Translations under genes and position numbers: made by a program
Source of the DNA: Spirochaetota bacterium
GTDB taxonomy: Bacteria; Spirochaetota; JAAYUW01; JAOAHJ01
DNA length: 43,017 nt
Direction: 5' to 3'
Assembly: GCA_026415295.1 (NCBI GenBank)
Contig: JAOAHJ010000025.1
Location: 1-43,017 of the forward strand
The notes under the pieces: model-generated
Told to the model about the DNA's origin: nothing
Database searches by the model: none
Seen by the model: the letters and a program-made list of their open reading frames with translations, nothing else
Shown: piece by piece, positions 5,331 to 27,619 of the stretch
How positions within the stretch are numbered: the first letter of the stretch is position 1
Layout of the letters: every line of letters starts with the position of its first letter

Positions 5331-8300
5331 TTATTCTTGGTAAACAATTGATCTGTTTTTCCCCAAGCTTTTTGCGAAATATAAGGCTTTATCTGCTTTG
5401 TTTATGAGCTCTTCTAATATGAAACCATCTTCTGGATAACTAGAAATACCAATACTAACTGTCATACTGTAAGGAATTCCTTGAATTTTAAGAAGTTCAA
5501 TGTTTTTTCTTATTCTTTCAGAAATAAAAAAACCATTTTTAATATCAGTGTTAGGTAAGAAAATTATAAATTCTTCTCCTCCGTATCTTCCAACAAAATC
5601 ATAGCTTCTAAGTGATTTTGTTATTGTATTGGCAATGCATTTTAGTACAAAATCACCTTTTTGATGTCCAAAAGTATCATTAATTTTTTTAAAATCATCA
5701 ATGTCAACCATTAAAAGGCAGTGGTTTTTACTAATTTCGCTTTTTTCAAAATATTCGAGAGTTTTATTTATAAAAACATCTTTTAAATATAATTCAGTTA
5801 ACCTATCTTTCATATAGAAATTTTCATTTTTAATAGAAATATAATAATTAGAAATAAGTAATGAAAGTAAATATAAATGATTAATGTCTATATTGGTTTT
5901 AATGTTAATTTTTTTATCAAGATATATAAAACCAGTAAGTAGATTTATATCGGAAAAGTTATTGTTGTATAAATGTCTTCTGTAGTATTTATTATTATAA
6001 ATTGGAATTATAATAATTTGAAAAATTTCAGAATTTTTAAATATAAAATTTTGAGGTTTTGATAAGATAGATAAATCATTTTTCCAAATCATATTAATGG
6101 GTTCATTATTAAGAAAAAAAATATTTTTATTATAGTATTCAAATTCAATTTTAAAATCATTGTTTCCGTTATTTTGAAAAAAAATTATCCTATCAAAATT
6201 CAAATCATCTAATAGCTGTACTAAAATATTATTAAATGATTTATTTTTATTAAAATTTAATATATAAAAACTATAATTATTAAAAAAATTAACTTGTCTA
6301 TACTTTATATTTATAAAACTGTTATCTTTTATAAAAGATTCAATTTTACTTAATAATTTATTATAATGTGGAAATAATGAGGAATCTAAATAAACTTTTT
6401 CTAAATGTTTTTTATATAAAGTCAATTTTTTTAGGTAATAATTTAGATATTTGTTATTTAATGACTTTAAACACTTTACATATTTATAAAAAAGAAATAT
6501 TTTAATATAGTTACTTGAAGAAAACCAGTAATCAAGTTCTTTTAATTTAAAATACTTATTCAAATATCTATAAACAATTTCTTCAGATTTATTTGTTTTA
6601 GATAATTTTAAATAAAGGATAATATTAGGAGGAATAAAATTTAAATTATTATTATTATTATTTATTGTGTCTAGCAAAGATTCAATAATATATTCTCTTC
6701 CTAATATATTATAACCAAAATCAAAAATAATTTCGTATATAAGATCGATATTTATTAATTTTTGTTGTGATTTTATAGATTTTTTTAAAAAAGAAGCAAA
6801 GTCTTCTATATCATTTAAATAATTTAAATTAAAATTAATCTTTTTTAAATCAATTTTTAATAAATCAAAAATAATATATTTATAAAAAGATAAAGAAAAA
6901 TAATATAAATCTAGTATTTCTTCAATTATTGTATGATCTTTTTTAATATTTTCATATATGTTTAAAAGATTATAAAATATTGTTATTATATAATTTTCTT
7001 CCTTATTTACAATTAAAAAATTTGAGATAATAATAGAAAATTGTAATATTCTCCTTAAATAATTATTATTATAATATAGATTTTCATTAAAAAGAGAATT
7101 AAAATATTTTTTTAATATGGCATTAATTTTATTAAATTTTAATCCATTATAACAGTTTATTGTATAATTACAAAGAGCAAGTGCAAAATAGTTAATATTA
7201 TGAAGGCTTTTAGATATCTTGAGTGCTTTATATGAAACATTAATCTTTTGTTTTATATCAATTTCAAGTAAGTTCTTATTGTTTAATGCTACAAAATAGA
7301 GAGTGTTATCAAATAATTTAAGAGAAATTTCATATGCTTTTAAAAGATAGATAGATGCTTCATAGTATTTTTTACTTCTATAATAAAATGTTCCAAGGTT
7401 GCTTAATGCTCTAAAAATAAAATATTTATTATCATACTTTATTGCTATTTTATAAAGATAATTTGAATAAGCCTTTGATTTTTTATGATTTTGTTGATAA
7501 AGTAAAGAGTAGGATATTTTATAAATGGAGTTAAGATATAACTCATTTTCTTTGTCAATTTCATTAAAAGAGTAAAGAAATCTTATAAACTTCTTTGATA
7601 TTTCAATTGTTTGAGTAGTTTTAAAATTTAAAAAATAGTATGAGCTTATAAGTGAATAATAAATTTTTAAATCGGTATTGTTAAATAGATCTTGATATTT
7701 TTCAATAGTTTCAACTATATCTTTAGATTCATTAATTTTCCCATATGTTAAAAATATAAATAATTTAGAAAATAGAATTATATAATTATTTTTTAATTTA
7801 TCTTTCTTATTGAGTAGAAGATCTAGTTTTTCAGTGATTTTATTGCTGTTATTTTTATAATATATTAAATAATAAGAAATTTGAAAAATAATAGAAGATA
7901 AATTATCTTTTAATTTTTTAAAATTTAATGTCCTATTTTTAACTTTTTTTAATAATTCAAAATACTCTTTCTCATTTATAAAATGGTTTGAAACAAAATA
8001 TTTGTATAGAACTTTTTGGTAAAATATTTCAGCTGCAAATTCGTAGTTTTTAATTTCAATTAAATACAAGATAAGTGCATAAATTTCATTATTGTTTAAG
8101 TTATCAAAGTTTTGAAGGTAAATTTTGCATACATTTTCTAATATTTTCTTTTTATTGTGTTTTTGAGAAATATATTCAAGGACAAGCATTCTTGTAATTC
8201 TAATATCTGCTGGTAAAAATCTTCCTTCATCAATATTAATTAATATTTTATTCTTTATTAGAAAATTAATTATTGGTATGAGATTATGTCCTTCGATATT

Positions 8301-9836
8301 TTTAAAATATTCAATTTTAGATGGTTTATCAAAATAATAAAAATAAAGAGAAAATATTTTTAAATCAATATTTTGAATTAGTTTAAATATTAATCCAATT
8401 TCTTTATTTAATAAAAGATTTGATATTTTTTTTTGGTTAAAAAATATATTATTATTTTTTAATATTAAAAAGTCTGTAAAATTATTTTGTAAAATAAAAA
8501 TTAATTTATCAAGATTTAAGTTTGCTAAATTTTCTTTTTCCTCGTTTGCAATAAAAGAAAATTTTATTAGAAAATTAACAAAATATTCAAATAAATTTTT
8601 ATTTTCATCGAGATTTATAAAATGTTTATAAGTTATTATTTTAAAAAATTTTAATTCATTATACTTTAGAGTATTTATAAAAAAAGCAATATTGGAATTT
8701 TCAAGTTTATAAAGAGTCATTAAAAATTCTAAACTAAATTTATCCATGTAATCAAAGTTATTAATAAAAATTATGATGTTATAGGATTTTGTGATAGTTT
8801 CAATTAATTCTATTAATTCATTTATAATTTTTTTAATTTGGAATTTTATAATATCATCATGTTTATGATATAATTTGTTTATTATAATATTATTATAATC
8901 TATAAAGGATTTGGTATATAAATTTTTTGATGTCTTTTCTATAAAATCATAAAGTAAAGAAAATTTATCTGGAGTTCCATTTAAATTTAAAAATATAATA
9001 TTGTGTTTTATTGATAAATCTTCAATTAAGTTAGAAATTAATATCGAAAGATATGATGGGAAACCTGCCAAGTTTATAATATGTGGGTTGTTACTAAATC
9101 GAAAATTATTTTTTACTTCAAAGTTTATAAAAGAATATAAATTATAATTATCATTTTTATATATAAAATTATTAAACTCATTTTTAATATCTTTAATTAA
9201 TGGTTCAAAAAAATCTATTGATATTTTAAAATTATTTGAATAATAATGTAAAATATAGTTAAATTTTTCTTCATCAATTATAAGTTGGTCTTTAATAACA
9301 GGTTCATAATTATAAATCTTAAGTTGATTCGAAGCAATATTGGATAAAAAGTATAAATCTTTCGAAAGGTTAGAATTACCTTTTATTAGAATAAAGTAAG
9401 GGTAATTGTTATTATCAAGAATTATATAATCTAAAGAGATATTGCCTATAGAAATATTAACTTTATTAGCCCAATTAACTATAAATACTAATTTTTTTAG
9501 AACTTCTATTTTTTCGTTATTATCAAGATTAATTTTTGATAAAGGTCTAAATTCAAAGTAATCAAATAAAATTAAAACTGAATGGGTATTTATATAAAAA
9601 TCATCAATGTAATAAATTTTTTGAATATTATTAGGTGATTTTATAAAAGGTAAAGAATTATATTTATTTTCTAAATAAAGATCAAATAGTTCATTAAAAT
9701 CATCATTTGTAATATTATTTAAAATAATTCCTATATATCTTTGATTAGTATTATGATCATATATATATGAAAAAGAACAATTTTTTACTTCAAGAAATGT
9801 TTCAAGTATTTCATAAAAAAAGTTAATAAATTTCAT
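5331..9836 (-). CDS. Giant signalling protein: degenerate kinase-like/STAND-like N-terminus, TPRs, GAF-like domain, C-terminal GGDEF diguanylate cyclase
   Basis: 1501 residues from ATG 9836; a TTG three bases upstream is also open. The C-terminal domain (about 1343-1501) is a complete GGDEF diguanylate cyclase: metal-site MVDIDDF, active loop GGEEF at 1419-1423 and inhibitory I-site RSYD at 1410-1413, so it should make c-di-GMP with product feedback. Before it, about 1155-1335, is a GAF-like alpha/beta region. The middle is helical, with a recognisable TPR (ALSNLGTFYYRSKKYYEA). The first 230 residues resemble a protein kinase fold without its catalytic motifs. Residues 250-370 resemble an AAA/STAND ATPase in which the Walker A position reads LAGFPSYLSIL (no GKT), while a Walker B-like IIIFINNFDYMDKF remains. 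This matches the kinase-ATPase-TPR-GAF-output layout with the first two enzymes apparently dead. It has no membrane helix. It is a single gene on its strand. The GGDEF call is sure; the N-terminal calls are by eye. Confidence 0.85.
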   Translation of the reverse strand: MKFINFFYEILETFLEVKNCSFSYIYDHNTNQRYIGIILNNITNDDFNELFDLYLENKYNSLPFIKSPNNIQKIYYIDDFYINTHSVLILFDYFEFRPLSKINLDNNEKIEVLKKLVFIVNWANKVNISIGNISLDYIILDNNNYPYFILIKGNSNLSKDLYFLSNIASNQLKIYNYEPVIKDQLIIDEEKFNYILHYYSNNFKISIDFFEPLIKDIKNEFNNFIYKNDNYNLYSFINFEVKNNFRFSNNPHIINLAGFPSYLSILISNLIEDLSIKHNIIFLNLNGTPDKFSLLYDFIEKTSKNLYTKSFIDYNNIIINKLYHKHDDIIKFQIKKIINELIELIETITKSYNIIIFINNFDYMDKFSLEFLMTLYKLENSNIAFFINTLKYNELKFFKIITYKHFINLDENKNLFEYFVNFLIKFSFIANEEKENLANLNLDKLIFILQNNFTDFLILKNNNIFFNQKKISNLLLNKEIGLIFKLIQNIDLKIFSLYFYYFDKPSKIEYFKNIEGHNLIPIINFLIKNKILINIDEGRFLPADIRITRMLVLEYISQKHNKKKILENVCKIYLQNFDNLNNNEIYALILYLIEIKNYEFAAEIFYQKVLYKYFVSNHFINEKEYFELLKKVKNRTLNFKKLKDNLSSIIFQISYYLIYYKNNSNKITEKLDLLLNKKDKLKNNYIILFSKLFIFLTYGKINESKDIVETIEKYQDLFNNTDLKIYYSLISSYYFLNFKTTQTIEISKKFIRFLYSFNEIDKENELYLNSIYKISYSLLYQQNHKKSKAYSNYLYKIAIKYDNKYFIFRALSNLGTFYYRSKKYYEASIYLLKAYEISLKLFDNTLYFVALNNKNLLEIDIKQKINVSYKALKISKSLHNINYFALALCNYTINCYNGLKFNKINAILKKYFNSLFNENLYYNNNYLRRILQFSIIISNFLIVNKEENYIITIFYNLLNIYENIKKDHTIIEEILDLYYFSLSFYKYIIFDLLKIDLKKINFNLNYLNDIEDFASFLKKSIKSQQKLINIDLIYEIIFDFGYNILGREYIIESLLDTINNNNNNLNFIPPNIILYLKLSKTNKSEEIVYRYLNKYFKLKELDYWFSSSNYIKIFLFYKYVKCLKSLNNKYLNYYLKKLTLYKKHLEKVYLDSSLFPHYNKLLSKIESFIKDNSFINIKYRQVNFFNNYSFYILNFNKNKSFNNILVQLLDDLNFDRIIFFQNNGNNDFKIEFEYYNKNIFFLNNEPINMIWKNDLSILSKPQNFIFKNSEIFQIIIIPIYNNKYYRRHLYNNNFSDINLLTGFIYLDKKINIKTNIDINHLYLLSLLISNYYISIKNENFYMKDRLTELYLKDVFINKTLEYFEKSEISKNHCLLMVDIDDFKKINDTFGHQKGDFVLKCIANTITKSLRSYDFVGRYGGEEFIIFLPNTDIKNGFFISERIRKNIELLKIQGIPYSMTVSIGISSYPEDGFILEELINKADKALYFAKSLGKNRSIVYQE

Positions 9837-9956
9837 CAATTAAATTTTAAATAATTATTAAATAAATTCAATAAAATTTAGTTAAAAAAAGTTAACAAAA
9901 ATATAAATTACTTTAAAAAAAATTAAATTATTATAAATTGATTTTGGATATAATTT

Positions 9957-21035: not shown

Positions 21036-21533
21036 ATGAATATTATTATTGATAAGATTAAAACTAAGAATGTTGATGAAACAAAAGAGGTTGCTCTTAA
21101 TTTTGCTAAAATCTTAAAATCTAATGATATTGTTATACTTGATGGAGAACTTGGTAGTGGGAAGACTGTTTTTATGAAAGGAATTGCAAATTACTTTAAA
21201 ATAGAGGAAGATATTATTTCTCCTACTTTTCTCATTGTTAATTCTTATGATATAAAAGTAAATTTTGAAAATATTGTTACAAATAATAATAATTCTTTAA
21301 AATTAAAAATAAATCATTTTGATTTGTATAGAATTGATGATTTTGATGAGCTTTATTATATTGGAATAGAGGAATATATTGAAAGTAGTGGTAATATAAA
21401 TTTTTTTGAGTGGGGGATGAAATTTTTAGAAAATTTTATAGAATATAATATAAACAATATATATATTGTTAAGTTAAAAGTTTTATCAGAAAATGAAAGA
21501 GAGATAAAGATAGAAAAACTAGTGAAAGAATAA
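21036..21533 (+). CDS. tsaE: tRNA threonylcarbamoyladenosine biosynthesis ATPase TsaE
   Basis: 165 residues. TsaE is the ATPase that drives the TsaB-TsaD complex in making t6A at position 37 of ANN-decoding tRNAs. Walker A GELGSGKT (37-44), SPTF (62-65, switch region), HFDLYR (94-99) and FFEWGMKF are all family marks. A charged N/K-rich stretch at about 72-92 is longer than usual. The gene is followed by tsaB after 17 bp, the common pairing. Its own ribosome site is weak (AAGAT). Confidence 0.95.
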   Translation: MNIIIDKIKTKNVDETKEVALNFAKILKSNDIVILDGELGSGKTVFMKGIANYFKIEEDIISPTFLIVNSYDIKVNFENIVTNNNNSLKLKINHFDLYRIDDFDELYYIGIEEYIESSGNINFFEWGMKFLENFIEYNINNIYIVKLKVLSENEREIKIEKLVKE

Positions 21534-21550: not shown

Positions 21551-22420
21551 ATGAATATTTTATTTTTAGATAGTTCTACAGAAAAGTTATATGCTGGTTT
21601 ATGCAAAGTTAAAAATTTTAATGAGTTTAATAAAATAAATAAATTTAATTTAGAAAAAGAATATAAATTAATAGTAAAAAATAGTGATCTTTTTGAAATC
21701 TATCAAATAATAATAGATGCAGGATTTAAACATACTGAAAATATATACGAAATAGTTTTAAATATTCTTAATTTAGGTAGACTTGATAATGTAAGTGATA
21801 TAGATTTGGTTGTTTTAGGTGCAGGACCTGGCTCATTTACAGGTATTAGAATTGCTTATTCATTTATTAAAGGATTATTAGTAAATTCTGATATTAAGAT
21901 TATTGAAATTCCATCTATATTTATTAAATTTATATCTTTTGTTTTTAATAATGGATTTATAAGTGAAGATGATATAATAGTACCCCTTATTTTTGGTAAA
22001 AAGAAAAAATTTTATGGAATGATACAAAGAGCTAAAGATTTAGAAAAAATTTTTAAGGAAAAGGGAGAAATAAATTTAATAAAAGATTTTTACTATTTTG
22101 ATTTTGAGATTAAAAATATTTTCTCAATTTTAAAAGATGTTATTGATAAAGATAACAATAAAAATATAAAGTTGTTCTTTGATTCTGAATTTAATCAGAA
22201 TGAAGAATTTTACAATGAATTTTATAAAAATAAAAATTTATTATTGATTCAAGAAGAAAAAAATATTAATCTTTATACATCCAAAATTGAAGTTGATCTT
22301 GAGAGAGTATTTTTATTTGTTTTAACTTATTTAAACAAAATATTTAAAAATAGTATAGATAAAATAGAGCCTTTTTATTTAAGAGAACCTGATGCGTATG
22401 AAAACTTAAAAAAGTTATAA
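21551..22420 (+). CDS. tsaB: tRNA threonylcarbamoyladenosine biosynthesis protein TsaB
   Basis: 289 residues of the ASKHA fold; TsaB is the non-catalytic partner that links TsaD to TsaE in t6A synthesis. The N-terminus MNILFLDSSTEKLYAGL and the signature GPGSFTGIR (92-100) are clear, and the C-terminus ends in PFYLREPDAYENLKKL as expected. It is longer than the common 220-240 residues because of K/N/D-rich insertions (for example 25-60 and 150-220), a trend seen across this AT-rich genome. AAGGGA precedes the ATG. tsaD is not in the window. Confidence 0.92.
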   Translation: MNILFLDSSTEKLYAGLCKVKNFNEFNKINKFNLEKEYKLIVKNSDLFEIYQIIIDAGFKHTENIYEIVLNILNLGRLDNVSDIDLVVLGAGPGSFTGIRIAYSFIKGLLVNSDIKIIEIPSIFIKFISFVFNNGFISEDDIIVPLIFGKKKKFYGMIQRAKDLEKIFKEKGEINLIKDFYYFDFEIKNIFSILKDVIDKDNNKNIKLFFDSEFNQNEEFYNEFYKNKNLLLIQEEKNINLYTSKIEVDLERVFLFVLTYLNKIFKNSIDKIEPFYLREPDAYENLKKL

Positions 22421-22543: not shown

Positions 22544-23803
22544 ATGTTAGATAAATTTAAAATTATTGAAATTGAAAATATTGAACTAAAAGAAAATATT
22601 GAAATATCGATATTATTATCAAAATATTTAAAGAAAAATAATTTAAGTTATTTTAATATAAATGATATAGTTGATAAAAAATTTATTTTAAATCTTAATA
22701 GTTCTTTTTATGGTCCTTTTTCTTGGAATGATAATTTTACATTCAAAAAAAGAATTAGTTGCGATGTTTATAGTCTAATTAAATCTGAAAAAGGATTATA
22801 TTATTTAAATCTTTTAGAAAAACCTAAAAATACAATAAAAATCTCCATTTTTCATGATAAAGAAAGATTTTATTCAATTTATAATGAAAGCTTTTTAGGC
22901 CAAAGTTTAAAAATTTATCCATTTCCTTTAGAAAAAATAAACTTTATTTTATGTAAAAAAATTGACCTCAATCAAAATATTATTAAAAAAGACCCTATAG
23001 ATTATAAAAATATTAATTTTGTTGAAGAGGAAGTTAATAATATTTTTTATAAATTAACAGGTATAGATCTTGATAATATAGAAAATTCTCATCTAATAAT
23101 AAAACTTGATCTTTATTCTTCTCTTGTTCCATGGGAAATACTTATAAAAAAATGTGTAAAGAATAAAAATACTATATCTTTTGTTTTTATACAATATGAT
23201 TTAAGCAATAGAATAAAATTAAATTTTGATAATTTATCCAATACTTTTAACAAAAATATTTCATATTTTTATTTTAAACCTGAAACAAAAAATTCTGAAA
23301 AAGAAAGAGAGATAGCATTTAAAGGTAATTATGATAGAATTATTCTTGTTGATAGTGAAGAATTGCTTATTAATAATTTTAGAAATGATTTCATAACATT
23401 TATTTCTGCACATGGATATCTTAAAGAGAACTTTAATACAATTATTTTAAATGAAAAACCTATTAGTCTAGAAGTTGTAGAATCACTTAAATCCTCACCA
23501 TTTTTTATTCTTTTTTTATCGTGCCTTATAACTATTTCATCAAAGGACAATATTATTAGGAAATTAATAAATAAAGGATTGAAAGAATCAATATTTAGTT
23601 CTTTTTTAATAGAGGACAATCTTTCTTATAATTTTTTTTATGAATTTTCTAAAGAATTAAATATTATAAATGATCCATTAATAAATTATATGTTCATACT
23701 TGAAAATAAATATAAAGATGGGTATGAGCTATTCAAATTTTTGTCATTTTATGATGAAAATAAAGTAACAAACATTTTAAATAGAGAAAAAATTTTTAAC
23801 TAA
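22544..23803 (+). CDS. CHAT-domain (caspase-like) putative peptidase
   Basis: 419 residues. The C-terminal part, about 185-380, carries CHAT-family landmarks in order: LVPWEIL (195-201), then FISAHGYL with the likely catalytic H290, a strand with IILNEKPISLEVVESL, then ILFLSCLIT with the likely catalytic C327, then KLINKGLKESIFSSF and NFFYEFSKEL, matching the usual 'll.aGa..vi.s....d....fy..l' ending. His-Gly and Cys are both kept, so a cysteine peptidase is plausible. The first 150 residues are unrecognised; no TPRs, signal peptide or membrane helix. It has its own gene start (AAGG upstream) after tsaB and converges on the anti-sigma-like gene, 101 bp away. CHAT peptidases are typically signal-activated. 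The target is unknown; the neighbouring anti-sigma-like protein is a candidate by position only. Confidence 0.78.
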   Translation: MLDKFKIIEIENIELKENIEISILLSKYLKKNNLSYFNINDIVDKKFILNLNSSFYGPFSWNDNFTFKKRISCDVYSLIKSEKGLYYLNLLEKPKNTIKISIFHDKERFYSIYNESFLGQSLKIYPFPLEKINFILCKKIDLNQNIIKKDPIDYKNINFVEEEVNNIFYKLTGIDLDNIENSHLIIKLDLYSSLVPWEILIKKCVKNKNTISFVFIQYDLSNRIKLNFDNLSNTFNKNISYFYFKPETKNSEKEREIAFKGNYDRIILVDSEELLINNFRNDFITFISAHGYLKENFNTIILNEKPISLEVVESLKSSPFFILFLSCLITISSKDNIIRKLINKGLKESIFSSFLIEDNLSYNFFYEFSKELNIINDPLINYMFILENKYKDGYELFKFLSFYDENKVTNILNREKIFN

Positions 23804-23904
23804 AATATTTTTTTTACATTAAAATAATAATTATAGGGTGTTTTATTTATAATTATATTTTATAAAATAATTAATTAATTTATAATTATTTTTTAATTTT
23901 TTCA

Positions 23905-24450
23905 TTATACAAATTTTGTGATTTTTTCATCTATTTCTAATATTAAGTATTTTTCTTTTATTAAAAAGGAAAGATCATTATTTAATGGATTTTTTTCAAA
24001 GTATAGAATTTTTTCTTTTTTATTATTTTTATCAATAAAGGATATTTTTAAATGATTAATTTTACTTTTTAAATTTATTTTGATACTTTTTTCATCATTT
24101 TCTGGAAAATATTTACAAAATATGATATATTTTTCTTCTTCAATTGTAAATTCTACAAATTTTCTCTCATTTGACCCTCTAAACTGAACTTCTTTTGTCT
24201 GATAGTTTATTTTTCTGTTAAAATTAATGAAAACAATTTTCGAAATTAGGTTATATAAAGAAAGACTTACAATATATTCGTTTTTTGAAATGGCTAGTTT
24301 TTCCATAAAATTGAGATCATTTAAAGTAACTAAAGCTTCCTGACAATATTTACAATTTTTAAGATGATTATTGTATAAATTTAAATCTGAATCAATATTG
24401 TTTGTAATAATATTATAAAAGTCTTCAATATCTAAATGATTAAATTTCAT
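23905..24450 (-). CDS. Zinc-finger anti-sigma-factor-like protein
   Basis: 181 residues from ATG 24450, chosen because AGAGGA lies just upstream; an in-frame ATG at 24498 lacks a ribosome site. Residues 1-45 look like a ZAS (zf-HC2) anti-sigma domain: a helix, then NNHLKNCKYCQEAL with H29-x3-C33-x2-C36. No membrane helix follows. About 75-181 is a mostly beta region (KFVEFTIEEEKYIIFCKYF, YLILEI) that could be a ligand or partner domain. So it would be a soluble anti-sigma factor rather than a membrane-spanning one. It lies 103 bp downstream of the sigma-like gene on the same strand, the normal order for a sigma/anti-sigma pair, and faces the CHAT gene. Assignment by motif and context. Confidence 0.65.
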   Translation of the reverse strand: MKFNHLDIEDFYNIITNNIDSDLNLYNNHLKNCKYCQEALVTLNDLNFMEKLAISKNEYIVSLSLYNLISKIVFINFNRKINYQTKEVQFRGSNERKFVEFTIEEEKYIIFCKYFPENDEKSIKINLKSKINHLKISFIDKNNKKEKILYFEKNPLNNDLSFLIKEKYLILEIDEKITKFV

Positions 24451-24553
24451 TTTTCCTCTTCTATTTTTTATTTTATATAATGTAAACTTATAATTCATTA
24501 ATTTTATAATTTAAAATATTTATAATATATACTAAAGTTTTTAATAAAAAATT

Positions 24554-25399
24554 TCATTTTTTTAAAAATTTTTCTTTTATTCTTGTTAATCTTATTCTTA
24601 AAGCATTTTCCGATAAATTTGTTAGTTTTGCAATAATTGAAATATCTCCGGTAATATTATAGGTGGATATTTTTTCAAAAATTTTTTCTTTTTTCTCACT
24701 ACTATCTATTTTATATATTTTATGTTTTAAAATTTCAAAAGTTTCATATTTCTTATTATTAGTATTTCTAAATTCATTTATTAAGTTTATCAAAACTGAA
24801 ATTTCAATATTTAATATATTTGAAACTTCAACTATTAATTTTTCATCTAATATTTCATAATAATATAGGCAAAAAATAGCTTTATCAATACCATTTAATG
24901 AATCAATAATATTGTTTATAATCTTCTTATAAAAAGCTTGATCATCATTTAAATAATAACTACTATTTGAATCAATATAAATAGGAGTATTTTCTTCAAT
25001 TTCATTTATACAATTTTTGCTGTTAATACTTTTACAATTTGAATAGATTTCGTTTAAAGAAATTTCTTCAATTTTCTTTTTAGTTGATTTTAAAAATTCA
25101 TAAAGTTTTGATTTAATAACAAGTATTAGATATGTAGAAATACTGCTTTTTTTTATATCATAATTATTAATAATATAATCAATTTTTTCATAAAAATATA
25201 AAGCAAAGTCATTTGCAAAGTCATCATCGTTTCTAAAATTTTTAGAATAAAATATAATATATGGATATAAAATTGAAAATATATAGTCTAGTTCTTCTTT
25301 ATTGAATTTATAATTTAAATTATTAGATTCAATTTTAGGATAAATGAAATTTTCAATCTTTTGAAATATTTGCTTTAAATCCAATTTTTGTCCCTTCAT
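24554..25399 (-). CDS. Divergent sigma-70 family (ECF-like) RNA polymerase sigma factor
   Basis: 281 residues. About 45-115 resembles sigma region 2 (IIFYSKNFRNDDDFANDF, then SSISTYLILVIKSKLYEFL, in the place of the usual A-x-D-x-x-Q-x-x-F and T-W-L-x-x-I-A-x-N). A long polar linker (about 115-170) follows. Then come two helix-turn-helix-like stretches: one near 170-220 (IDKAIFCLYYYEILDEKL) resembling region 4, and one at the C-terminus (IAKLTNLSENALRIRLTRI). The extra length is unusual for a 180-200 residue ECF factor. The gene starts inside the kinase gene (47-bp overlap). A TTG start at 25384 with AAGGGA upstream is an alternative. The order kinase, sigma, zinc-finger protein points to a regulated sigma factor. 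Similarity is low, so the call is moderate. Confidence 0.62.
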   Translation of the reverse strand: MKGQKLDLKQIFQKIENFIYPKIESNNLNYKFNKEELDYIFSILYPYIIFYSKNFRNDDDFANDFALYFYEKIDYIINNYDIKKSSISTYLILVIKSKLYEFLKSTKKKIEEISLNEIYSNCKSINSKNCINEIEENTPIYIDSNSSYYLNDDQAFYKKIINNIIDSLNGIDKAIFCLYYYEILDEKLIVEVSNILNIEISVLINLINEFRNTNNKKYETFEILKHKIYKIDSSEKKEKIFEKISTYNITGDISIIAKLTNLSENALRIRLTRIKEKFLKK

Positions 25400-26603
25400 T
25401 TAGTTTGGATTCTATTATTAACTTAAAATTATGCAGTTCTAATATTTTTTTTGTTAATGATAGACCAAATCCAAGTCCTCCATATTTTCTTGAAAGATCT
25501 TTAGAATGCTGATAAAAAAGTTTAAATATATTATTAATTGTCTCCTCATCCATCCCAATACCTTTATCAATAATAAAAATATAAGCGTAATTTTCATCTT
25601 TCTCTATAGATATCATTATTGGTTTATTGTCTTTGTTGAATTTAATAGCATTATCAATAAGTTGTTTTATAGCTATTCTAATAAATTCTGGATTTATTTT
25701 GATAAATATTTCATTTGATTGAGTACTTAAAATTATTGGTGTATTTATATTCTCATATTCTTTAATAATAGATTTAACAAATTCACAAATATTTATTTTT
25801 TCTCTATTAAAATTTTTTATTTTATCAGATATTTGTATAAATAACAAAAGGTTATCAATCATATATGAAAGATTATTACTGTTTTTAATTATTATTTGGA
25901 GAGCTTTTTTCTGTTGTTGATTTAGTTCGCCAAGGTCTTCTTCATTTAAAAGATCAAGATATCCTTTGATTGTTACTAAAGGGGTTCTAAATTCATGTGT
26001 GATATTATAAATAAAAGAGTTTTTTAAGGTTTCAAATGATTTTAATTGTTCATGTGATTCTGTCAATTTAGCTTGGGATATTTGGTTCTTTCTTATAAAA
26101 ATAATACTATTTAAAGATTTTGATAGCTCATCTACACAAGCTATAATAAGATTAATTTCTTCATTTAAAAAATCTATATCAAGATTTCTTGTAATTAAAA
26201 CAAAACCGATCATTTCATCAACGAAAATTAAAGGTAAAATTAAGGCTTTTTTTGATTCATTAAAAAACTCAAATATTGTTTGATTTTTTTGTATTTTGTT
26301 GAAGATAAGAGGGATTTTTAAATTATTCATTGTAATAATTTCTTTTTCTTTTATTGAATATTGATATTTTGTGTTAATTATACCCATTTTTGAAACTAAA
26401 TAAAAAGATGGTTCATTATAATCTTTTAAATATATTGCAGCTTTATCAATAAAAAAATGAATAGATAATTTTAATAAAAATTTTTGACAAATAATATCTT
26501 CAAATAGAAGATTGTTAAGTTCTGATAATATTTCTAAAATTATATTTGAATGAAAAATAGAGATATTTTTATTGTTATTTAATAATGTTGTACTCATATT
26601 CAA
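25353..26603 (-). CDS. GAF-domain sensor histidine kinase (cytoplasmic)
   Basis: 416 residues. About 25-165 looks like a GAF sensor domain (FIDKAAIYLKDYNEPSFYLV, ALILPLIFVDEMIGFVLI). A coiled segment leads to the HisKA domain with phospho-acceptor H203 in THEFRTPLVTIKGYLDLL. The ATPase domain has N box N318 (QLIDNAIKF), G1 DKGIGM (346-351) and G2 YGGLGFGLSL (374-383). No membrane helix and no receiver domain. The start is TTG at 26603, overlapping the previous stop as TTGA, with AGGA 5 nt upstream; ATG 26597 is an alternative. No response regulator gene is in the window, so its partner is unknown; it could act on the sigma/anti-sigma pair encoded next. Confidence 0.9.
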   Translation of the reverse strand: MNMSTTLLNNNKNISIFHSNIILEILSELNNLLFEDIICQKFLLKLSIHFFIDKAAIYLKDYNEPSFYLVSKMGIINTKYQYSIKEKEIITMNNLKIPLIFNKIQKNQTIFEFFNESKKALILPLIFVDEMIGFVLITRNLDIDFLNEEINLIIACVDELSKSLNSIIFIRKNQISQAKLTESHEQLKSFETLKNSFIYNITHEFRTPLVTIKGYLDLLNEEDLGELNQQQKKALQIIIKNSNNLSYMIDNLLLFIQISDKIKNFNREKINICEFVKSIIKEYENINTPIILSTQSNEIFIKINPEFIRIAIKQLIDNAIKFNKDNKPIMISIEKDENYAYIFIIDKGIGMDEETINNIFKLFYQHSKDLSRKYGGLGFGLSLTKKILELHNFKLIIESKLNEGTKIGFKANISKD

Positions 26604-27619
26604 TAATATCCTTTAATTATTAATCCATTAGAAGGTAAAGAAGGCCCTATTTTATCGATAAAAAAAAATGTTTTTATTGGAATAAAGTTTAAAAACTTAT
26701 TTCTTATGTTTATGTTTTGTATAAGACTTTGATCTATTAATAACATTGAGTTGCTTAATTTTTCTTTAGTTAACTTGACAAGAGTATTTATTAAATTTGT
26801 TTTTGATAATTTATATAAAAAAAATGATTGAAATTTAGAAGGGGCAATATTTGAAAATAATTTTTCTTCAAAATTGATATTTTCTATAAAAAATTTAGTA
26901 AAAATATTAGACTTTTTATAAATATTAAATTTAAAAATATTTAATTTTAGAAAGTCTTTTAATTCTTCTGTTGTTTTTAAATTTGTAATTTTAAAGAAAT
27001 ATTCAAAAGGGGAGATCATATTTATAGAATTTATAAGGTTTTTGTTTACATCTGTAATAGTAAAATATGTATCTTTTTTTTCCCAGAACTCATTATAGAT
27101 TTCAAAATTTAAATCTTTTTCAAAAAATAAAATGAGAAAAAAATTTTCAATTTTATTTTGGTTATATAATAATGAGGTATGTTTTTTCTCAAAATGTATT
27201 ATATTGTATTTTATTTTTGATGAGAGAATATTATAAAAATTGAATGAAAAATCATATAATGATTCAGGAGATAAACAATTAGTTATAACAAGTAAATATT
27301 TAATTTTTGGTTCTTCTATATTTAAGTTATTTAAAAAAAAATGGTAGTTTTCAGTTGGGTATATTACATATTTAACATTTTCTGGTAAAATGAAATGAAA
27401 AACAGAGTTATTTGAAATATTGCCATCATTTATTAAGTATTTATTATTTATTAATATGAAGTTTTTATTTGAATATTTTTGATCGAATTCAAAAAATGTA
27501 TCAAAATAAATATCATTAAAAAAAATTAAATTTATTTTATCCTTAACATATTCATTCTTTAATTCAATAGAAAATTTATTAATGTCAAAATTTTTATATA
27601 CTTTTTGAAGAATACTCAT
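26600..27619 (-). CDS. Unrecognised 339-residue protein at the head of the kinase-sigma genes
   Basis: I do not recognise this protein. It has no signal peptide or membrane helix. Composition is F/N/I/K-rich like its neighbours. The first 200 residues alternate short hydrophobic strands with helices (KINLIFFNDIYF, KYLLVITNCLS, NFFLILFFEKDLN), suggesting an alpha/beta fold, perhaps a degenerate nucleotide-binding or Rossmann-like domain, but no P-loop is present. The C-terminal 120 residues are helical and end PSLPSNGLIIKGYY. Its TGA stop overlaps the start of the histidine kinase gene (TTGA), so translation is coupled and it probably works with the kinase. It starts 44 bp after the DUF192 gene. 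Confidence 0.8.
   Translation of the reverse strand: MSILQKVYKNFDINKFSIELKNEYVKDKINLIFFNDIYFDTFFEFDQKYSNKNFILINNKYLINDGNISNNSVFHFILPENVKYVIYPTENYHFFLNNLNIEEPKIKYLLVITNCLSPESLYDFSFNFYNILSSKIKYNIIHFEKKHTSLLYNQNKIENFFLILFFEKDLNFEIYNEFWEKKDTYFTITDVNKNLINSINMISPFEYFFKITNLKTTEELKDFLKLNIFKFNIYKKSNIFTKFFIENINFEEKLFSNIAPSKFQSFFLYKLSKTNLINTLVKLTKEKLSNSMLLIDQSLIQNINIRNKFLNFIPIKTFFFIDKIGPSLPSNGLIIKGYY

Follow-up and report, generated by a model that had tools for sequence, protein, structure and literature searches.

The window, by which we mean the whole 43,017-nucleotide stretch of DNA analysed, is a contig from a spirochaete genome of 2.1 Mb (JAOAHJ010000025.1) and carries a gene for a CHAT peptidase that faces a sigma/anti-sigma gene pair. 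The peptidase, a separase-like protein of clan CD with 419 residues, is encoded on the plus strand at 22544..23803, with the codons of its catalytic H290 and C327 at 23411-23413 and 23522-23524. Minus-strand genes converge on it. They are, from right to left, a DUF192 gene, a gene for a 339-residue protein (26600..27619), a gene for a cytosolic histidine kinase (25353..26603), a gene for a 281-residue sigma factor of the extracytoplasmic function (ECF)-like kind in which a long spacer separates regions 2 and 4 (24554..25399), and a gene for a 181-residue zinc-finger anti-sigma factor (23905..24450). The kinase gene overlaps the start of the sigma gene by 47 bases and the gene of the 339-residue protein overlaps the start of the kinase gene by 4 bases; hence, the minus-strand genes probably form an operon. 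The original prediction, which was made from this DNA alone, had placed the CHAT, anti-sigma, sigma and kinase genes correctly. It had also chosen the start at 24450 for the anti-sigma gene, and this start fits the relatives better than the full open reading frame, which extends to 24498 and would give 197 residues. The prediction that no CRISPR system lies beside the CHAT gene agrees with a search for CRISPR-like repeats in the window, which found none. No cas genes were noticed around the locus, although a genome-wide search for Cas7-11 was not made.

The identity of the peptidase was established through its relatives. The window protein itself is too divergent to be matched by Pfam PF12770; orthologues from neighbouring families at the same type of locus match this CHAT profile above its cut-off (8.6e-14, 2.4e-12, 5.9e-11 and 3.4e-9). 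In a profile-profile comparison, the CHAT proteins of the window's taxonomic order aligned to these orthologues with an E value of 8.1e-5 (unrelated controls gave 0.39 and 0.82), and in this alignment H290 and C327 fell on the catalytic His and Cys, respectively. The His-Gly (H290-G291) and C327 were thus rightly read as kept: all 64 CHAT homologues that could be read have both the His and the Cys, which argues that the protein is not a pseudo-enzyme. One Pro and the two catalytic residues are the only invariant positions in an alignment of 32 CHAT sequences.

An AlphaFold model computed from the four CHAT sequences of the window's order was unusable, with a predicted local distance difference test score (pLDDT) of 37. 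The fold comparison was made with an orthologue from another family (locus L095) in place of the window protein, as the deep alignment of 32 sequences yielded a confident model (pLDDT 91.4, predicted template modelling score 0.89). The best PDB matches of this model were separase (1e-11) and Csx29 from the complex with Cas7-11 and Csx30 (8eey_B, 3e-11), and further matches were SAVED-CHAT (3e-8) and DdvA (2e-6). The last of these is a transmembrane anti-sigma factor, the PDB chain of which is named CHAT domain-containing protein. As predicted, neither the window protein nor its orthologues showed a match to tetratricopeptide repeats (TPR). The N-terminal part of the L095 model has a mixed beta/alpha fold. 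The proposal that this part is a sensor is only hinted at by weak matches of the orthologues to EVE (0.0015) and Dev_Cell_Death (DCD, 0.003-0.05). Elsewhere, PUA-like domains such as these are binders of nucleic acid or of modified bases. In the CHAT proteins of the window's order, the EVE/DCD-like domain is shortened around a retained YGPF-x-W motif, and we regard the likeness as a lead only.

The 281-residue protein matches the sigma70-ECF profile TIGR02937 with an E value of 6.7e-9 at 35.6 bits, which is under the cut-off of 42.9 bits; several orthologues pass this cut-off (47-113 bits), and a profile-profile comparison gave a match with a probability of 96% (E value 3.5e-9). The profile of the sigma orthologues finds SigW in the PDB (2e-7), and that of the zinc-finger proteins adjoining the sigma genes matches RsiW (1.3e-4). 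SigW and RsiW are the two chains of the 5wuq structure, and the assignment of the 281- and 181-residue proteins as a sigma/anti-sigma pair is therefore upheld. The specialised profile of the CRISPR-associated sigma factor, CAS_III-E_sigma (NF041236), gave at best 24.9 bits with the relatives, against a cut-off of 100.

The zinc-finger motif H45-x3-C49-x2-C52 (197-residue numbering, 24343..24366, minus strand) was confirmed in the smaller protein of the pair. It aligns with the C-H-C-C pattern of the relatives, which match zf-HC2, and the upstream ligand is not evident as a Cys in the window protein. A zf-HC2 anti-sigma profile built without the window protein finds residues 41-196 of it with an E value of 1.1e-4. 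We recognise the protein as a zf-HC2 anti-sigma factor, which is predicted to inhibit the sigma factor. In the second family of the window's order (f2), the anti-sigma genes at 6742-7245 of locus L019, 8916-9425 of L020 and 10381-10890 of L021 encode proteins in which neither the zinc motif nor the Arg residue described below is left, and a profile comparison gave no link between these proteins and the zinc-finger family.

A further conserved element of the anti-sigma factors came to light when the products of the gene that directly follows sigma, 53 proteins picked by their position and not by any motif, were aligned. One column holds an Arg in 46 of the 53 proteins in all three MAFFT modes used, and these proteins come from across the phylum. 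The conservation of this column is exceeded only by a Tyr of the C-terminal beta domain and the start Met and is tied with that of a Gly of the beta domain, whereas the best zinc Cys column reaches 28/53 and the median column about 0.23. In the window protein the residue is Arg107 in the sequence VQF-R-GSN (197-residue numbering, 24178..24180, minus strand). It is located in the linker that joins the sigma-binding part to the C-terminal beta domain. It is surrounded by A/S/P at P3, V/T/A at P2 and G/S/N at P1' (40/53), and is followed by a polar stretch of variable length, 50-89 residues, up to a G-x-Y motif. Separase cuts after Arg. The cleavage site of an Arg-specific clan CD peptidase would be expected to look like this, with a lone conserved Arg flanked by small residues in a variable linker, and we propose this Arg as the candidate site at which CHAT would cut. 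The original prediction had suggested that the CHAT protein may cleave the anti-sigma factor, and the linker Arg, we infer, gives this suggestion better support.

The genes in question also stay together. The CHAT gene lies beside the sigma/anti-sigma pair in relatives, as expected from the original prediction: in all four genomes of the window's order, which belong to two families, the block is kept as DUF192, a protein of about 340 residues, kinase, sigma and anti-sigma, followed by the convergent CHAT and tsaB genes. We then used sigma homologues as an entry point into other families and fetched about 80 loci. CHAT, sigma and anti-sigma genes are contiguous in 18 genomes of seven families, in three arrangements, where about 0.15 genomes would be expected by chance. 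Eight genomes of families f4, f5, f13 and f23 have a co-directional CHAT-sigma-anti-sigma order (L095-L097, L154, L172-L174 and L004, the last counted with its contig ending inside or just after the sigma gene, so that the anti-sigma gene is not visible). The convergent arrangement is that of the window and L019-L021 (families f1 and f2). Six f6 genomes have the order sigma-anti-sigma-CHAT (L107, L124, L128, L143, L147 and L152) and their CHAT proteins form a separate clade; a seventh f6 genome shows anti-sigma-CHAT on a broken contig.

Co-occurrence was assessed with unlinked genes included, from lists compiled by hand. The same sigma factor is present in 91 of the 94 genomes with a strong CHAT match versus 135 of 393 overall, a figure inflated by relatedness among the genomes; at the family level, 19 of 21 CHAT families have it (Fisher 7e-8). 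A search of the genome collection with a closer set of six sigma sequences gave matches in spirochaete metagenome-assembled genomes only, which does not settle whether other phyla have it. The neighbourhood is not due to chance, and the proposed switch would be old in Spirochaetota. Because the CHAT gene stands behind tsaE-tsaB in several families and neither CHAT nor sigma has a match in the defence library, the set appears to be an old, vertically inherited chromosomal module and not a mobile defence island.

In the window, the genes upstream of CHAT are tsaE (21036..21533, plus strand) and tsaB (21551..22420, plus strand), the latter directly preceding the peptidase gene. The order tsaE-tsaB-CHAT recurs in five genomes of two further families (L095-L097, L173 and L174) and tsaB-CHAT is found throughout the window's order, which ties the peptidase to genes of t6A tRNA modification. 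CHAT genes were also seen in other settings. Proteins of about 600 residues with a long C-terminal extension are encoded away from the sigma gene in several families (L030, L031, L032, L033 and L168-L171). The f2 genomes carry a second, longer CHAT gene elsewhere (G001:C10:21637-22266, G003:C53:9814-10455 and G002:C154), unlike the window's genome, in which a single CHAT gene was seen. The f2 CHAT proteins are without the conserved Asp of the W-x-I-P-D motif. A co-variation of this Asp with the linker Arg was considered and rejected: both are lost in f2, but f13 and f4, without the Asp column, keep the Arg, so that this is one event at best and not evidence.

The most likely explanation, to which we give a probability of roughly 0.6, is that the locus encodes a chromosomal, non-CRISPR switch in which cleavage of the anti-sigma factor by the CHAT peptidase, after the linker Arg, releases the sigma factor. 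It builds on four observations: the identities of the genes, their linkage across genomes, a catalytic dyad that does not vary and the conserved Arg. The N-terminal zinc-finger part of the anti-sigma factor would hold the ECF-like sigma factor inactive until a signal, perhaps sensed by the EVE/DCD-like domain, activates the peptidase. Cleavage after the Arg would part the sigma-binding region from the C-terminal beta domain, and the sigma factor would be freed either directly or once the fragment has been degraded further, and would then turn on its genes. In its widest form the proposal stands at about even odds. It would describe a vertically inherited, phylum-wide switch: a CHAT peptidase specific for Arg and equipped with an EVE/DCD-like sensor would cleave a soluble zinc-finger anti-sigma factor at the linker Arg, and an unusual ECF sigma factor would be set free. 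Such a switch would be a counterpart, outside immunity, of the Csx29-Csx30-CASP-sigma system, and that system may even have evolved from it.

Several findings weigh against the cleavage switch. The three f2 genomes keep the CHAT dyad, but their anti-sigma factors have no clear linker Arg (K, I and S are found instead) and no zinc finger; therefore, the cleavage site there must differ or have moved. Of six loci from genomes in which no CHAT was seen, four have the Arg, and so it could serve another protease or a structural role, unless CHAT was missed in these genomes. Arg or Lys occupies the linker position in 44 of 47 loci with CHAT and in 4 of 6 without it, numbers that are too few to matter. 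In several families sigma and anti-sigma genes are together while CHAT is elsewhere. Finally, the CHAT and sigma reading frames overlap in some co-directional relatives, which would also fit a direct contact between CHAT and the sigma factor.

This overlap, seen in several operons, leads to the alternative that CHAT targets the sigma factor directly, or targets the complex with no cut in the linker, for instance by degrading the sigma factor or by pulling off the anti-sigma factor as a binding partner. Such an action would be in agreement with DdvA, in which the CHAT domain belongs to the anti-sigma factor and is not a separate enzyme acting on it, and with the proposal that ECF54 is controlled by proteases, CHAT proteins included, without an anti-sigma factor (PMC8999054). 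We nevertheless consider it unlikely, as all 64 readable CHAT proteins keep the catalytic dyad and the conserved Arg that resembles a protease site lies in the anti-sigma factor (the sigma factor was not screened for an equivalent).

It is also quite unlikely that CHAT is an output of the sigma/anti-sigma pair, for instance a suicide or processing protease with other proteins as its targets. The co-occurrence and operon linkage would look identical in that case, and SAVED-CHAT and caspase-like proteins are defence effectors elsewhere. However, in the window's order the CHAT gene comes after tsaB, a housekeeping gene, and is read from the other strand than the sigma operon, and in L019 and L020 the gap between tsaB and CHAT is 6 bases or an overlap. 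The neighbourhood is a housekeeping one, too, and in PADLOC, CHAT, sigma and anti-sigma had no match save a marginal one of JetB (0.0096) to the window anti-sigma factor, and the matches of the kinase were marginal or generic. Lastly, a redox or metal switch of the zinc-binding anti-sigma (ZAS) type or a kinase-gated one, with a functionally separate CHAT kept by synteny around tsaB, is improbable. In its favour, HxxxCxxC resembles redox-sensing ZAS proteins, sigma/anti-sigma pairs have no adjacent CHAT in many families and no other protein of the block is as well conserved as the kinase. Against it, CHAT is linked with sigma in two or more unrelated arrangements, of which that of f6 has a separate CHAT clade, the two co-occur when unlinked, and the zinc ligands, absent from f2, show lower conservation than the linker Arg.

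The closest known parallel to the proposed cleavage switch is found in type III-E CRISPR loci, where Csx29 cleaves Csx30 and thus relieves CASP-sigma (Strecker et al. 2022, PMC10028731). In both cases a CHAT peptidase of the same fold adjoins a sigma factor and its inhibitor, and the inhibitor has an N-terminal part that binds the sigma factor and a distinct C-terminal part. The spirochaete inhibitor differs from Csx30 in being a zf-HC2 anti-sigma factor, not known to be Csx30-like, with a conserved linker Arg; the peptidase has an EVE/DCD-like N-terminal domain where Csx29 has TPRs; and the locus is a vertical, housekeeping one beside tsaE-tsaB. As TPR and CRISPR-like repeats were not detected and the sigma factor is below the NCBI III-E cut-off, the proposed spirochaete switch is not a type III-E member.

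In DdvS/DdvA of Myxococcus xanthus (PDB 8rot, 8rlz), a zinc-finger anti-sigma factor and a CHAT fold likewise share one regulatory unit. DdvA is a single transmembrane chain, whereas CHAT and anti-sigma have a gene each in every linked locus that we examined, and the two proteins have no obvious membrane segment. SigW/RsiW resembles our pair in the profile matches of both partners; the long spacer between regions 2 and 4, the soluble-looking anti-sigma factor with its beta domain and linker Arg, and the proposed use of CHAT in place of a membrane protease set the pair apart. For ECF54, CHAT, subtilase or carboxypeptidase proteins are encoded near the sigma gene, proteolytic control was proposed, and the group is described without an anti-sigma factor (PMC8999054); in our linked loci the anti-sigma gene directly follows the sigma gene, and it is by this description that we distinguish them from ECF54. 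Separase (clan CD, C50) is the best match of the CHAT family in both fold and sequence profile, but the family is bacterial, is only about 420-470 residues long and has no securin-like partner that we could see. A literature search on CHAT plus anti-sigma returned nothing beyond the type III-E study; the large ECF reclassification paper and the DdvA structure paper were outside that search, so that an earlier description of the spirochaete groups is possible. On our best reading, what is new is the near-invariant linker Arg of the anti-sigma factors, in a switch that may be likened to Csx29-Csx30-CASP-sigma but would be built of other parts.

The remaining genes of the block appear to be peculiar to the window's order. 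The original prediction of a GAF histidine kinase holds for the kinase, as HisKA and HATPase_c are clear, but the GAF domain is marginal (GAF_2 at 0.0028, in one of four orthologues). There is no adjacent response regulator gene. The kinase is about 40% identical among the genomes of the order. That it may gate the switch, as was also suggested, is consistent with the gene order kept within this order, but the kinase is absent from the CHAT-sigma operons of other families, with a single near-exception in which a histidine kinase lies a few genes upstream. The kinase is thus specific to the window's order and might be unrelated to CHAT; if it is involved at all, it would be an extra input there. 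The 339-residue protein is always encoded directly before the kinase, shares 17-23% identity within the order, and has no match in Pfam, NCBIfam or the PDB; beyond the order, no relatives of it were recognised. A known defence system was also considered for the window CHAT, the 339-residue protein and the kinase context and was set aside, as Pfam, NCBIfam and PADLOC gave no useful match. Searches of viral contigs and of a viral fold library gave no match. Elsewhere in the window, 5331-9839 encodes a 1502-residue protein that carries a GGDEF domain at its C terminus; some 1300 of its residues are not matched by Pfam at 0.001.

Gene switches in which a caspase-like peptidase cuts an inhibitor are familiar from type III-E CRISPR immunity. 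A housekeeping version in spirochaetes, if true, would mean that this wiring is older and wider than CRISPR, and CHAT proteins of unassigned role would gain a natural substrate. Furthermore, the candidate cleavage site is one residue, which is directly testable and is present in dozens of orthologues.

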